A stretch of 64,000 bases of DNA from Marinomonas hwangdonensis (lineage in GTDB: Bacteria; Pseudomonadota; Gammaproteobacteria; Pseudomonadales; Marinomonadaceae), in the NCBI RefSeq assembly GCF_003721245.1, contig NZ_RIZG01000002.1:342571-406570 (forward strand), given 5' to 3'. This document shows positions 49,846-58,403 of this stretch, piece after piece; position 1 is the stretch's first letter; the number at the start of each line of letters is the position of its first letter. The position numbers and the translations under genes were made by a program. A model generated the notes under the pieces. It worked only from the letters and a program-made list of their open reading frames with translations. It made no database searches and was not told the origin of the DNA.

Positions 49846-50556
<711 letters not shown>

Positions 50557-50565
50557 ATATCGTTA

Positions 50566-51339
50566 CTATCCTACTGGGTTCAGCAATGATTCCATCAAAC
50601 TCTCGTACGCTTTAATGCCTCTAGCGTTAGGATCAAGAGCTGAGGGTGCAATTCCTGCTGTACTGGCGTCTCTTAATTTAGTGTCTACTGGAATCACCGA
50701 GTGCCATACCAGATCGTCATAAGTGTCTTTTAAACTTCGTAAACTTTTATTGGATGCCTGAGTCCGTCTATCAAATAAAGTCGGTACAATTAAAAAAGGG
50801 ACAGGACGCTTTCTGGCTCGATTAATCATCGTTAAAGTCCTGACCATTCTTTCTAGCCCCTTAATAGCCAAAAACTCCGTCTGTACGGGGATAATAAGTT
50901 GCTTACACGCAGCCAACGCATTGATCATCAAGACTCCCAGAACAGGTGGGCTGTCAATCAATACATAATCATACTCATCCCAGAGTATCGCTAGTGTTTT
51001 AGATATCACTAGCCCCATACCTCCTTGAGCCTGAGCATGACGCTCAAGCGTTGCGAGGGCCGTTGACGCAGGTAAGAGTGATAAATTCGGATGACCCGTT
51101 TTAATAATAAGCGAAGCGGGGAGATCTGCAGGTATTTTACCGGAGGTTTGAAATAGATTGTACGCACTTTTTTCAACGGAATCTGGATCGAATCGAAAGT
51201 AACTGGTCAGAGAACCGTGTGGATCAAGATCCATCATTAATACTCTATTACCAGCGTCTGCAAGCAACCCTGCTAATGAAACAACAGTGGTGGTTTTTCC
51301 AACACCGCCTTTTTGATTCGCCACTGCCCAAATGTGCAC
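50566..51339 (-). CDS. ParA-family ATPase, ParC-like polar localisation factor
   Basis: A 257-residue MinD/ParA-type ATPase. The deviant Walker A is NQKGGVGKTTT (residues 8-18), with MDLDPHGSLTSYF (switch) and YDYVLIDSPPVLGV (Walker B). ParA proteins in this genetic position (after cheB/motCD, before a CheW-like ParP and cheW) are the ParC polar organisers of chemotaxis arrays in Vibrio, and the Soj-like protein in Pseudomonas clusters. It is not the FlhG/FleN flagellar number regulator, which would sit between flhF and fliA. Confidence 0.85.
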   Translation of the reverse strand: MHIWAVANQKGGVGKTTTVVSLAGLLADAGNRVLMMDLDPHGSLTSYFRFDPDSVEKSAYNLFQTSGKIPADLPASLIIKTGHPNLSLLPASTALATLERHAQAQGGMGLVISKTLAILWDEYDYVLIDSPPVLGVLMINALAACKQLIIPVQTEFLAIKGLERMVRTLTMINRARKRPVPFLIVPTLFDRRTQASNKSLRSLKDTYDDLVWHSVIPVDTKLRDASTAGIAPSALDPNARGIKAYESLMESLLNPVG

Positions 51340-52224: not shown

Positions 52225-52954
52225 AAGCGTTAAGCTCAAGTTCTAAACGGTAAGGGTGTTTTCCAACGGCAATTCCACAAATTCCGTCAATGAGCAACTG
52301 GTGATAAAGCAGCTCTTTATCTATGTGTCCTGTTAACTTTTTTACTATCGGAAAAATAATGAGGTTAGCAAAACCTTGACCATAAAGCGTTGATACAAAG
52401 GCAACCGCTATACCATGACCTAACGCTTCAGGACTATCTAAGTTGGCCATGGCTTGTATCAGACCAAGCACAGACCCCATAATCCCTAATGTAGGCGCAT
52501 ATCCACCGATAGACTCCAGAAAAGACACGCTCCGCATACGTTTTTCATGTATGCGGACGGCATCATCATGCAATCTGTCCATGAGCAAATCAGGATCAGT
52601 ACCGTCAATGGCCATTTGTAAGGCCCTACTCGAAAACGGATTCCTAATTGCTTCGATATCAGATTCAAGAGACAACAAAGACAATCTTCTGGCTTTGTGA
52701 GCTAAATTATTCAGTAATGCGCGGGCGGCATCAAGGTCATATACGGGAGGGAATAGGCTCCATTTCAGAATAGACAAAGCACGATAGGCTTCTTGAATGC
52801 TACTTTGTATGAGAGTGGCACCGATACTGCCAGCGATAACAATAATGGCTGAAGGGAGATTCAGTAAAAGAATCGCCTCCCCCCCTCCTAGCCAATTCGC
52901 TAGAAACACCGCACTGAAAGCGATGACCAAACCAGCTAATGTCACAAAATCCAT
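52217..52954 (-). CDS. motC: Flagellar stator protein MotC (MotA family)
   Basis: A 245-residue stator A-subunit with four TM segments (FVTLAGLVIAFSAVFLANWL near the start) and the conserved GYAPTLGIMGSVLGLIQAM segment of MotA/PomA proteins. With MotD it forms the ion channel that drives rotation. Its ATG overlaps the cheB stop by one base and its stop overlaps motD by eight bases. Confidence 0.92.
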   Translation of the reverse strand: MDFVTLAGLVIAFSAVFLANWLGGGEAILLLNLPSAIIVIAGSIGATLIQSSIQEAYRALSILKWSLFPPVYDLDAARALLNNLAHKARRLSLLSLESDIEAIRNPFSSRALQMAIDGTDPDLLMDRLHDDAVRIHEKRMRSVSFLESIGGYAPTLGIMGSVLGLIQAMANLDSPEALGHGIAVAFVSTLYGQGFANLIIFPIVKKLTGHIDKELLYHQLLIDGICGIAVGKHPYRLELELNAYE

Positions 52955-54018
52955 TAGCTTACCTCACGTACAATACGCTCACCAATGTGGTCTAAATCAA
53001 TTATATCATCGGCTAAATTGGCTTTCTCAACAGCCATGGGCATACCGTAAATAACACAGGAGTTTTCACTTTGAATCCACACTGTTGAGCCTGAACTCTT
53101 CAGCATGCGCGCGCCTTCGCGGCCATCAGCCCCCATGCCAGTCATAACAACAGAAAGTACTTTACCTGGATAACATTTTGACGCTGAACCAAATGTCACA
53201 TCAACAGAAGGCTTAAAGTTAAGTCTATCGTCGCCATCTAAAACGCGTACGCAACCGCCATTTCTTGAATCAATCATCATTTGCTTACCACCGGGCGCTA
53301 AAAGTGCAACACCAGGTACTAAACGATCACCGTCTTTTGCTTCACGCACAGTAATTTTGCAAATATTGTTTAAGCGCTCAGCGAAAGCTCCTGTGAAAGC
53401 AGCAGGCATATGCTGCACCACTACGATAGGCGCAGGGAAATCTGCTGGCAACTTGGTCAACACCGTTTGCAACGCCATTGGACCGCCTGTTGATGTCCCA
53501 AGAGCCACCAAACTGACTTTTTTTCTAGCTCGAGGAATGATAACACCACGACTAGTGACGATTGGTTTTGGCGCTTCTCTTGGTCCTAGCGCCGCCACTG
53601 GCTGACGACTGCCCGCTAACCGTGTTTTGGCAACGGTTAATACTCTTTCTACCAAAGCTCGCTTCACTACTGCTGAATCTCGAGAAATATCCTCGAAATT
53701 CTTAGGCATAAAGTCAACCGCACCCGCTTCTAGAGCATCCAAAGTGACTTTAGCGCCCTCGTGTGTCAAAGAAGAAAACATTAACACAGGTGTAGGCTTG
53801 AGCTTCATGATATTAAGAACAGCCGCTATACCATCTAACACTGGCATTTCGTAATCCATGGTTACCACATCAGGAGAGAGTGACTGTACTTTCTCAATTG
53901 CCTCTCGACCATCATTCGCTGTACCAACAACGGTTAACCTTGGATCTGCTTCAAAAATTTCAACCAGTCGGCGTCGAAAAAAGCCAGAGTCATCAACAAC
54001 CAATACCTTAACAGGCAT
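52954..54018 (-). CDS. cheB: Chemotaxis response regulator methylesterase CheB
   Basis: A 354-residue protein with an N-terminal receiver (DD at 9-10, Asp55 in VTMDYEMPVLDG) and a C-terminal methylesterase with catalytic Ser176 (GTSTGGPMAL), His203 (VVQHMPAAFTGAFAERLN) and Asp298 (GMGADGREGA). It removes methyl groups from chemoreceptor glutamates for adaptation. It lies 26 bases downstream of cheA. No cheR is present in the window. Confidence 0.95.
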   Translation of the reverse strand: MPVKVLVVDDSGFFRRRLVEIFEADPRLTVVGTANDGREAIEKVQSLSPDVVTMDYEMPVLDGIAAVLNIMKLKPTPVLMFSSLTHEGAKVTLDALEAGAVDFMPKNFEDISRDSAVVKRALVERVLTVAKTRLAGSRQPVAALGPREAPKPIVTSRGVIIPRARKKVSLVALGTSTGGPMALQTVLTKLPADFPAPIVVVQHMPAAFTGAFAERLNNICKITVREAKDGDRLVPGVALLAPGGKQMMIDSRNGGCVRVLDGDDRLNFKPSVDVTFGSASKCYPGKVLSVVMTGMGADGREGARMLKSSGSTVWIQSENSCVIYGMPMAVEKANLADDIIDLDHIGERIVREVS

Positions 54019-54044: not shown

Positions 54045-56324
54045 TTACCTATATGCGTAACTTTTCAACATGCTAGGTACATCCAGAATCAATGCAATAC
54101 GCCCATCACCTGTAATGGTTGCACCAGCCATACCTGCTGTGCCTTGTAGCATTCTTCCTAAAGGCTTTATAACCACTTCTTCTTGGCCTACCAACTGATC
54201 AACAACAAAGCCCACCTCACTGATACCAACTTGGATAACAACAACGTGCGCCTCTGCAGGCAGCTCAGCCGTATTATTCCCTTTAATTAACCAGTTTTTA
54301 AGGTTAAAAATTGGCAATGTCTTACCGCGAATAACAACGACTCGTTGTCCATCGACGACATTGGTTTTTTTCAGATTAAGATGGAAAATTTCATTAACAC
54401 TCACCAATGGGAAAGCAAACGCCTGATCCGATAACGTCACCATAAGAGTTGGCATAATGGCAAGCGTTAGGGGAACCTTGATATTAAATCTAGATCCTTG
54501 ACCTAAAGCTGACTTAATGTCTAACGTTCCGTTAAGCTGAGAAATCTTGGTCTTAACAACGTCCATGCCGACCCCACGGCCTGACACATCGGTCACAACG
54601 GTTTTGGTTGAAAACCCTGCTGCAAAAATAAGGTTAAAGGCTTCATTATCAGACAATCTTTCTGCCGCGTCTGCGTCCATTAACCCTTTCTCGACAGCTT
54701 TACTGCGAAGAAAATCAGGGTCCATGCCCGCACCATCATCTTCGATGGAAAGTAATATGTGATCACCTTCTTGCTCCGCTGACAAGGTAACCGTACCCAT
54801 TCTAGGCTTGCCGCTTGCTTCGCGAACGTCTGGTGATTCAATACCATGATCCACAGAGTTGCGAACCAAGTGGACAAGCGGGTCAGCTAAGGCTTCTACT
54901 AAGTTTTTATCAAGATCGGTTTCTTCTCCGCGAAGCACTAAGTTAACTTCTTTTTTCATGCTTCGAGCAAGATCTCGCACGACACGTGGAAAACGACCAA
55001 ACACTTTCTTGATTGGTTGCATACGTGTTTTCATCACCGCGTTTTGCAAATCTCCGGTGACCACATCCAGATTTGATACCGCTTTACCCATTGACTCATC
55101 TTCGCTTTGAAGACCTAATCGAACAAGGCGATTTCGAACGAGCACAAGCTCACCCACCATGTTCATAATGTCGTCTAAACGTTTAGTATCAACACGTACT
55201 GTGGTTTCTTGCACTACCGGCGAGTTGGCGGACTTTTCTTTGCTTTGATCAGGATCTGGCTCATGGTGATCTGGGACCACTTTCGCTTTTTCAGCTGGCT
55301 TAGCTTTTGGCTTTGGAGGCGCTTTGGGCGCGACTTTTGGCTTTTCTGGTTCAGCCTTTGACTTACTCTCTTTACTTTGCAAGGTGTCTAGTAAAGACTC
55401 AAATTCATCTTCTGTAATTAAGTCAGACTCTCCTCCGCTTAACCCAGCTTGCTTTTCTGAGCTGTCTTTATCTGTGTCTTTTTTACCACTAGGAGAACCA
55501 CTTTCACCGTGAAGCTTATTCAACAGTTCTTCAAATTCATCTTCCGTAATTTCATCTGAAGAAGCAGACTCAGCAGATGAATTTGCCTTTGGAGCCTCCT
55601 TTTTATCTGGTTTGTCTGTCGAAGAATCACTGAGACCAGGAGCACCGCTGCCATGAAGCTGGTTTAATAAAGCATCAAACTCGTCTTCTGTAATTTCATC
55701 ATCTGATTTTACTTCTGCGACCGATGCTGTTTTTTCGCTGCTACCTGACGCCTCTGAAGAGGCACCACCAAGCGCATCTAATAAAGATTCAAATTCATCG
55801 TCTGATATATCAGCAGGTTCCTCAGACTCAGTTAGTGACTCTGATTCGCTTTCTTCTGGCTCGTCATCGACTACTTCATCGTCTGATGCTTCATCATCTT
55901 CGTCGTCATTTTGGCCCGAAAGCTCTTCTTCTGTCGGAGGAGAAGCATAGGCACTCAAAGCCGCGATCAATTCAGGCGAGGCACGCTCAGGAATACCACC
56001 AGCACGCACTGTATCAAACATTTCATTGACTGCATCAAGTGCTTGTAAAACGATATCCATCAAATTGGAATCTATTTTACGTTGGCCGTTACGCAATATA
56101 TCAAATACGTTTTCGGCATAATGGCAGCAATCAACTAATGCCGTTAACTGTAAAAATCCAGCGCCACCTTTGACGGTATGAAAACCGCGAAAAATTGCAT
56201 TTAGTAACTGTTTATCATTAGGGTTTTGTTCAATGTCTACCAATTGTTCAGAGAGCTGCTCTAGGATTTCACCAGCTTCTACCAAAAAATCTTGTAGAAT
56301 TTCTTCATCGACCTCGAAACTCAT
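54045..56324 (-). CDS. cheA: Chemotaxis histidine kinase CheA with repeated docking motifs in place of P2
   Basis: A 759-residue kinase. P1: phosphorylated His49 in FRGFHTVKGGAGFLQ. Residues 130-320 are acidic, Ser-rich and carry four copies of a helix motif (see the repeat entry). Residues 325-370 are Pro/Lys-rich. P3 dimerisation begins TTVRVDTKRLDDIMNMVGEL (374-393), P4 kinase shows the N-box region LVHLVRNSVDHGIE and G-boxes DDGAGMD and GRGVGMDVV, and P5 is the CheW-like C-terminus. No globular P2 (CheY-binding) domain can be found. It phosphorylates CheY and CheB. Confidence 0.94.
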   Translation of the reverse strand: MSFEVDEEILQDFLVEAGEILEQLSEQLVDIEQNPNDKQLLNAIFRGFHTVKGGAGFLQLTALVDCCHYAENVFDILRNGQRKIDSNLMDIVLQALDAVNEMFDTVRAGGIPERASPELIAALSAYASPPTEEELSGQNDDEDDEASDDEVVDDEPEESESESLTESEEPADISDDEFESLLDALGGASSEASGSSEKTASVAEVKSDDEITEDEFDALLNQLHGSGAPGLSDSSTDKPDKKEAPKANSSAESASSDEITEDEFEELLNKLHGESGSPSGKKDTDKDSSEKQAGLSGGESDLITEDEFESLLDTLQSKESKSKAEPEKPKVAPKAPPKPKAKPAEKAKVVPDHHEPDPDQSKEKSANSPVVQETTVRVDTKRLDDIMNMVGELVLVRNRLVRLGLQSEDESMGKAVSNLDVVTGDLQNAVMKTRMQPIKKVFGRFPRVVRDLARSMKKEVNLVLRGEETDLDKNLVEALADPLVHLVRNSVDHGIESPDVREASGKPRMGTVTLSAEQEGDHILLSIEDDGAGMDPDFLRSKAVEKGLMDADAAERLSDNEAFNLIFAAGFSTKTVVTDVSGRGVGMDVVKTKISQLNGTLDIKSALGQGSRFNIKVPLTLAIMPTLMVTLSDQAFAFPLVSVNEIFHLNLKKTNVVDGQRVVVIRGKTLPIFNLKNWLIKGNNTAELPAEAHVVVIQVGISEVGFVVDQLVGQEEVVIKPLGRMLQGTAGMAGATITGDGRIALILDVPSMLKSYAYR
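55374..55811 (-). repeat. Four repeated FliM/CheZ-like helix motifs in the CheA linker
   Basis: On the protein level the linker has four copies: DISDDEFESLLDALGG (172-187), DEITEDEFDALLNQLHG (209-225), DEITEDEFEELLNKLHG (257-273) and DLITEDEFESLLDTLQ (301-316). Spacing is 37-48 residues of Ser/Gly/Lys-rich sequence. The consensus (I-S/T-x-D-E-F-D/E-x-L-L-D/N-x-L-x-G) is nearly that of the FliM N-terminal CheY-binding peptide and of the CheZ C-terminal helix. Confidence 0.85.
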
Positions 56325-56336
56325 CCTCAGCTCCTT

Positions 56337-57125
56337 CTAGAAACCAAGACTTGATAGCAAGTCGTCTACTTCGTCTTGACTATTCAGTACTTCAGGGTTG
56401 TTTTGTTTATTGATAGATGGGCCGTGTCCACGAGTATCATCGTGTTCGGCTTCACTCTCTTGATGTTCCATACCAGAGATACTATCAACGCGTCCAGCAA
56501 CAGCAACGAGATGCACAAGTTTTTCTTCTACATCACGAATTAAATCATTCACTCTAGTGATCACTTGACCGGTAAGGTCTTGATAACCCTGCTCTAGGAG
56601 AATTGTGTTGAGGTTTGAATGCAATGTGGTGGCACTTTCGTCCGCATAAGATAAGAAAACATCTATGCGTTTATACAGATCACGAAACTCCTGCGGCGTT
56701 AAATCACGTTGGATTAAACGTCCCCAGTCTTTTCTTAGCGCCCGTGCTTGTGATTGTAGTTCACTGGCAACAGGGACACTACTGTCAACCATGTCCATAG
56801 TTTTATTGGCGGCGGCACTAGTTGTTTCAATAACGTAATTTAAGCGGTCGGATGCGTCAGTAATTTTGGTTGCGGAATCATTACCACCTTCACCAATAAC
56901 TAAATCCATAGAATCAATTTGAAAATCACGGATAGCATCATGCAAACTACGGGTTAAACAACCCACTTCGTTGTAAAAACTATTGTGACGAGCCTCACTC
57001 AATTCTTGGATTATTTTTATAGCCCCACTGAAATCGCCCACTTCAAGGTGATTCAGAAGATCTACCGCACCGTCTTTTACTAGGTTTTCAAATTCCACTA
57101 ATCCAGACCCCAATACTTTTGACAT
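56337..57125 (-). CDS. cheZ: Chemotaxis phosphatase CheZ
   Basis: A 262-residue helical protein that dephosphorylates CheY-P. The four-helix core holds the catalytic Gln in LEQGYQDLTGQVITRV, as in E. coli CheZ. The extreme C-terminus, NSQDEVDDLLSSLGF, is the flexible CheY-binding helix, almost identical in pattern to E. coli. It lies ten bases downstream of cheY and 12 upstream of cheA. Confidence 0.93.
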   Translation of the reverse strand: MSKVLGSGLVEFENLVKDGAVDLLNHLEVGDFSGAIKIIQELSEARHNSFYNEVGCLTRSLHDAIRDFQIDSMDLVIGEGGNDSATKITDASDRLNYVIETTSAAANKTMDMVDSSVPVASELQSQARALRKDWGRLIQRDLTPQEFRDLYKRIDVFLSYADESATTLHSNLNTILLEQGYQDLTGQVITRVNDLIRDVEEKLVHLVAVAGRVDSISGMEHQESEAEHDDTRGHGPSINKQNNPEVLNSQDEVDDLLSSLGF

Positions 57126-57134
57126 CGAAAATCC

Positions 57135-57527
57135 TTATTTAGCAGCGTCTATTCGTTCGAATATTTTCTCAATTTTTTCTTTGAGGGCTACCGCAGTAAA
57201 TGGCTTGACAACATAACCGTTAACACCCGCTTGCGCAGCGGCAATAATTTGATCACGTTTTGCCTCAGCCGTTACCATAAGAACCGGAATGCTTTTTAAT
57301 TTCTCATCCGCTCGCACAGCACGCAACAACTCAATTCCTGTCATACCCGGCATATTCCAGTCTGTTACAAGAAAATCGATCGTTCCACCTTGAAGTATCG
57401 GCAAGGCTGTTGTTCCATCATCTGCTTCAACTGTATTGGTAAACCCTAAATCCCGTAACAGGTTTTTAATGATTCGTCTCATTGTCGAGAAGTCATCAAC
57501 AATTAGGATTTTCATATTTTTATCCAA
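57135..57527 (-). CDS. cheY: Chemotaxis response regulator CheY
   Basis: A 130-residue single-domain receiver. Acidic pair Asp11-Asp12, phosphoacceptor Asp56 in [13 protein letters not shown], Thr86 region LMVTAEAK and Lys108 in VVKPF. Phospho-CheY binds the flagellar switch. The start is taken at TTG 57527 ([13 protein letters not shown]), five bases after a GGAGG site; the ATG at 57515 (MKILIVDD) is an alternative. It heads the run cheY-cheZ-cheA-cheB after fliA. Confidence 0.95.
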
Positions 57528-57569
57528 TGCAACCTCCACACCCCAAAGGTAATATTTCACCGCTCATAA

Positions 57570-58307: not shown

Positions 58308-58403
58308 AAAAAAATTTAAGCAACCTTTATCATTTAAACATGTCGCGATCACCAACTGTACTACATAGTTTAGTGCAACGCTTTCAGTAATAACATATTT
58401 TTA

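Follow-up and report, generated by a model that had tools for sequence, protein, structure and literature searches.

The window, by which we mean the whole 64,000-nucleotide stretch of Marinomonas hwangdonensis DNA that was analysed, encodes at 54045-56324 a CheA histidine kinase whose linker between P1 and P3 contains no P2 domain; a short amphipathic helix motif occurs there four times, with the consensus D-E-I-[TS]-[DE]-[DE]-E-F-[DE]-x-L-L-D-x-L-H-G. The four-copy repeat is far above chance, and the array is characteristic of an entire clade of CheA proteins without P2. Judging from the residue pattern, we lean slightly towards the view that each copy docks a receiver by its alpha4-beta5-alpha5 face, with CheY as the principal ligand, and so performs the task of the missing P2. 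FliM, CheZ and P2 all bind CheY on this face. The features concerned are these:

54045-56324, minus strand: cheA, an open reading frame of 759 amino acids with the layout P1, motif-array linker, P3, P4, P5 (Pfam Hpt, H-kinase_dim, HATPase_c and CheW)
55215-55979, minus strand: disordered linker from P1 to P3 without P2 (CheA residues 116-370); no Pfam P2 or CheY-binding match, low pLDDT outside the motif helices
55764-55811, minus strand: motif copy 1, DISDDEFESLLDALGG (residues 172-187), from the motif profile; predicted helix
55650-55700, minus strand: motif copy 2, DEITEDEFDALLNQLHG (residues 209-225), from the motif profile; predicted helix, the most FliM-like copy
55506-55556, minus strand: motif copy 3, DEITEDEFEELLNKLHG (residues 257-273), from the motif profile; predicted helix
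55377-55424, minus strand: motif copy 4, DLITEDEFESLLDTLQ (residues 301-316), from the motif profile; predicted helix
56337-57125, minus strand: cheZ (PF04344, 5.8e-66), with the C-terminal CheY-binding tail LNSQDEVDDLLSSLGF
57135-57515, minus strand: cheY, the proposed ligand (NCBIfam CheY, 1.9e-56; V. cholerae CheY3, 5.3e-61), counted from the likely start MKILIVDD, the longest open reading frame extending to 57560
52954-54018, minus strand: cheB (receiver plus methylesterase), an open reading frame recognised from sequence and position; a further receiver possibly served by the array
50566-51339, minus strand: parC, a ParA-family ATPase (PF13614, 7.1e-43)
49846-50556, minus strand: parP, with a CheW-like domain (PF01584, 2e-12; ParP profile, 2.0e-51), the rival partner

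The CheA product has P1, P3, P4 and P5, as evidenced by Pfam matches to Hpt (3.3e-18), H-kinase_dim (6.6e-16), HATPase_c (2.3e-18) and CheW (6.7e-26). Gene order in the window is fliA-cheY-cheZ-cheA-cheB-motC-motD-parC-parP-cheW. The arrangement fliA-cheY-cheZ-cheA-cheB-mot-parC-parP-cheW, for which we take F6 (the polar flagellar chemotaxis system) to be the name, occurs both here and in the related loci, and the motif-bearing CheAs form one tree group, so that the system is of the F6 type. The cheZ product aligns to the solved E. coli CheZ (1kmi, chain Z), the C-terminal end of which is likewise SQDQVDDLLDSLGF, and the ParP domain contains the conserved block RPWLAGTV.

Two other features of this region were noted. 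The genes cheY, cheZ and cheA share a reading frame, with single stops between them (window 55350-57560, minus strand), as they also do in about 20 related loci; the shared frame is probably due to chance. At 58356-58403 of the window, there is no flhG between flhF and fliA. It is likewise absent from this position in Marinomonas, Maribrevibacterium and Oceanospirillum loci (L003, L004, L008, L010 and L045), while in Marinobacter and Zooshikella loci the gene occupies this place. Compared with Marinobacter FlhG, the whole genome of M. hwangdonensis gives at best a match of 27% identity, about the level of a MinD/ParA paralogue.

The four copies, originally reported at 55374-55811, are indeed present and are located at residues 172-316 (55377-55811). 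A motif profile searched against the organism's own genome matches these four copies alone up to E=10, the best at 4.7e-12. The spacers had been described as rich in Ser, Gly and Lys; the linker is more precisely D/E/S-rich, these three residues making up about 44% of it, with K, A and P besides. A full SHOCT domain (PF09851, 28 residues) was not found in this CheA, profile positions 14-27 alone being matched; the SHOCT score is 21.6 bits for the whole protein against a cut-off of 27, and 28.3 for the linker by itself over two stretches.

Across 12 species of Marinomonas and Maribrevibacterium, the motif copies are 85-97% identical, as opposed to 29-37% for the spacers, which also vary in length. 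Codon differences within the motif are largely synonymous; in copy 1, for instance, 447 are synonymous and 32 amino acid-changing over 990 codon pairs. A scan of genome contigs yielded 80 related CheA loci, in each of which a narrow pattern recognises between one and four copies; they belong to Marinomonas, Marinobacter, Pseudomonas, Cellvibrio, Thalassolituus, Oceanospirillum, Alteromonas, Pseudoalteromonas and other genera. A class-wide and a single-order sample agreed with this. Of 249 Pseudomonadota genomes, 29, all of them Gammaproteobacteria, contain the motif, and it is exclusive to CheA: every locus read is a CheA, one being an N-terminal fragment on its contig. Copy number, as counted by eye, runs from one (L131, L134) to at least eight (L139). 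Number and spacing of the motif vary, and its hydrophobic and acidic core is invariant. Such variability around an invariant core, together with restriction to CheA, is what would be expected of short linear docking motifs.

Some individual loci depart from the common pattern. The CheA of L139 (genome G033) has a linker of 563 residues, in which its eight or more motif copies are accompanied by a long AAPAKP repeat tract. In the CheA linker of L123 (genome G192), three repeats of almost identical sequence, LPEGVDPDGEITDDEFEALLNQRD, lack the LHG tail that is otherwise usual, and the CheZ of the same genome is the only one of 125 without an LGF ending. We discount this apparent co-variation of CheA and CheZ, as it comes from a single divergent operon.

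No P2 or CheY-binding model matches this CheA in Pfam, and none occurs among the Pfam families listed (25 of 107) for 68 motif-type linkers. The E. coli P2 does not match the linker of this CheA either. A second clade of CheAs carries at this point a conserved block, GWxIxFxPxxxxLxTGNDPxR...FxWVExDCxLxI, which we call P2-like on account of its position and of a weak in-register alignment to E. coli P2 (E 0.0055, probability 6.6%); as the alignment is no stronger and sequence searches of the PDB match no solved P2, naming it outright as P2 was dropped. A profile of the linkers of this second clade matches 33 of 35 of its own kind and 0 of 155 motif-type linkers; having been built from those same sequences, it is informative solely in failing on the motif linkers. 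In a tree of 86 CheA cores, the 53 motif-bearing proteins form one group (support 100/98) and the 31 P2-like proteins another (100/100). Motif and P2-like block are mutually exclusive, no CheA having both, and several genomes encode one CheA of each kind, such as G157 (L088, L114) and G192 (L086, L123). The remaining two of the 86 have neither; these short-linker CheAs (L141 in G199, L149 in G068) adjoin the motif clade in the tree.

The AlphaFold2 model of the linker extends to residue 325. Within a read-through chain, CheA residues 1-325 are predicted as P1 and then disorder, in which the motifs form short helices; a globular domain is absent there. Together with the profile results, this supports the original claim that no globular domain lies between P1 and P3. 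It had further been claimed that this CheA has replaced P2. The array does occupy the P2 position and P2 is absent, but the proper wording is that this CheA clade lacks P2.

The N-terminus of FliM in this genome is MSAQDLLSQDEIDALLHG, and that of E. coli FliM is MGDSILSQAEIDALLNG. Ungapped substitution scoring of the FliM core LSQDEIDALL gives 28 with the CheA motif consensus (permutation p 3e-4), 34 with motif copy 2 (p 5e-5) and 32 with the CheZ tail of the same genome (p 3e-4). In related genomes, the highest score of a CheA copy is 37, whereas the best of 644,000 unrelated windows scores 30; the median CheA copy scores 27, which about 11 in every million unrelated windows also attain. The strict test turned out otherwise. 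With HMMs of FliM N-termini and CheZ C-termini, a check put forward with the original prediction, the CheA motif ranks at background, no higher than unrelated proteins. These profiles are too narrow, since the CheZ profile does not pick out FliM either. Pfam SHOCT, a family without a link to CheY, matches the same stretch in 67 of 68 motif-type linkers, and the first half of the motif is also a generic helix N-cap pattern. The predicted resemblance to FliM and CheZ therefore stands for a 10-residue core, where it equals that of CheZ to FliM, and falls away under strict profiles. As a pattern of residues, the likeness is real. It is insufficient to prove a common ligand, given the frequency at which the median score is reached elsewhere, the failure of the strict profiles and the SHOCT match.

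Short repeats were also seen at the fliM locus L083. A fliK-like gene near fliM (L083:9933-12383, minus strand) has at least five copies of a repeat of about 40 residues, GPVTAVSLTQGAENTPDDLHLVSSTTFDKVGSSSAESAELK, with an unresolved base in the assembly. The fliN product (L083:7864-8325, minus strand) has two copies of DEWAAAMSE at its N-terminus, a further case of a short motif repeated in a protein of the flagellar switch.

In the mechanism that we propose, the P1-P3 linker would be a disordered tether with four short amphipathic helix motifs, each docking a receiver, chiefly CheY, on its alpha4-beta5-alpha5 face in the fashion of the FliM peptide and the CheZ tail. Docking would raise the local concentration of CheY close to phosphorylated P1, and the array would thereby perform the function of the absent P2 domain. 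Several CheY molecules could be bound per CheA, and CheA would compete with FliM and CheZ. We infer the ligand, the face, the multiple occupancy and the competition alike, and regard docking of CheY as plausible. The loci with the motif retain the other players: 124 of 125 CheZ tails end in LGF, FliM, where read, begins with L[STN]Q[DE]E[IV]DALL, and the alpha4-beta5-alpha5 stretch of CheY is strongly conserved and near the E. coli sequence. Because CheY, CheZ and FliM are all retained, the proposed receptor face is under constraint; its conservation follows from the need to bind FliM and CheZ.

Structure prediction was applied to artificial read-through chains with stops read as Gly, CheY-CheZ-CheA(1-325) versus CheZ-CheA(1-325), and compares confidence values. 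Confidence at the four motifs is about 78, 76, 67 and 82 with tethered CheY versus 86, 81, 80 and 89 without it. The CheZ tail, a known binder serving as control, likewise shows no rise with CheY (about 62-63 versus 54-65). Foldseek on the read-through model returned CheY structures only, among the matches listed.

ParP is the main alternative to CheY, as the array might be the CheA 'LID', the segment to which the AIF domain of ParP binds and through which chemosensory arrays are held at the cell pole. According to two publications (PMC7534058, PMC5706961), the LID sits between P2 and P3 of CheA and occurs solely with ParC and ParP. In the CheAs studied here, the motif array is the sole clearly conserved sequence in the LID interval, and array and LID may therefore overlap. 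Moreover, parC and parP are present in this operon and in most motif-bearing loci. The distribution of the motif argues the other way. At least nine motif-bearing genomes have no recognisable ParP, defined by CheW-level matches below 40 bits to a ParP profile that scores 49-200 bits in ParP-bearing genomes. They include G154, G001, G192, G056, G193, G159, G156, G265 and G270, and the same holds for G012, G165, G430 and G536; several of these are drafts and a very divergent ParP could drop to the CheW level, but G192, G012, G165, G430 and G536 are scored 100% complete. In the tree, G012, G165 and G430 are basal within the motif clade, as is G536, itself on a long branch, and several ParP-less genomes retain the LHG tail. 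This implies that the array is independent of ParP, though ParP may use it where present. We consider the LID reading rather unlikely, and ParP is less likely to be the sole partner of the array.

The motifs could also dock another component, such as the receiver of CheB or CheV, CheW, or the P1 or P4 of CheA itself (for example, as an autoinhibitory helix). The P2 of classical CheA binds CheB as well as CheY (PMC11978298), cheB adjoins cheA in the motif loci and the resemblance to FliM is moderate only. No result points specifically to such a partner, and an internal one is hard to square with copy numbers from one to at least eight; we regard this alternative as unlikely. A purely structural role, in which self-capping acidic helices keep a long linker soluble and extended and the FliM likeness stems from helix-capping rules, would agree with the SHOCT match and with the stand-alone helices predicted by AlphaFold2. 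It seems very improbable, as a near-invariant F..LL..L amid diverging spacers, shared by all CheAs of the clade and absent from all other proteins, argues for a specific partner. Docking of CheY is the reading that we favour. Its general form, that a CheA clade spanning Pseudomonas, Marinobacter, Alteromonas, Pseudoalteromonas and many other Gammaproteobacteria feeds CheY via tandem FliM-mimic peptides instead of P2, is put forward tentatively, at somewhat less than even chances.

The array is a conserved, sequence-defined candidate for how P2-less CheAs recruit CheY, in a clade that includes the well-studied Pseudomonas. If the CheY reading is true, one interchangeable peptide code for CheY would operate at kinase, phosphatase and motor, and copy number, from a single motif to eight or more, would be tunable, setting the amount of CheY kept at the array and the strength of the competition of CheA with CheZ and FliM. 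If ParP is the ligand instead, the motif defines the LID at residue level.

CheAs without P2 are already published; for the motif array we found no description. Over half of CheAs have no P2, and an unstructured region in its place, according to PMC10542144 and PMC10782961. The latter, by Berry, Andrianova and Zhulin (2023), treats P2-less CheAs with an unstructured region, as here; in the part accessible, a repeated motif there goes unmentioned and P2 is regarded as dispensable. A repeated CheY-docking motif in P2-less CheA linkers, including the string EFEALLD, was not found described in the literature covered, a partial body that leaves out the original LID paper.

Among known systems, the P2/CheY-binding domain of classical CheA (Pfam; E. 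coli, T. maritima) occupies the same position between P1 and P3, and the two have a common proposed task, to hold CheY near P1; P2, however, is a folded domain, whereas the array consists of short helices in disorder and matches no P2 model. The LID of Vibrio CheA shares the interval of the array, compared by interval rather than by residues, and its ParP and ParC are present in this operon; it is reported only where ParC and ParP are present, whereas the array is found also in genomes without recognisable ParP. The FliM peptide has in common with the CheA motif the core [ST]-x-[DE]-E-hydrophobic-[DE]-x-L-L within a short terminal peptide, but occurs as a single N-terminal copy, with I at the central position where the CheA motif has F, and lacks the L-H-G tail. 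The C-terminal helix of CheZ (LNSQDEVDDLLSSLGF) differs in terminating with LGF at the C-terminus, in having V centrally and in occurring once per chain, but shares with the CheA motif both the core and a third leucine (LLxxL). Conserved in the CheA motif, the LHGKG tail has no counterpart in FliM and only a partial one in CheZ.
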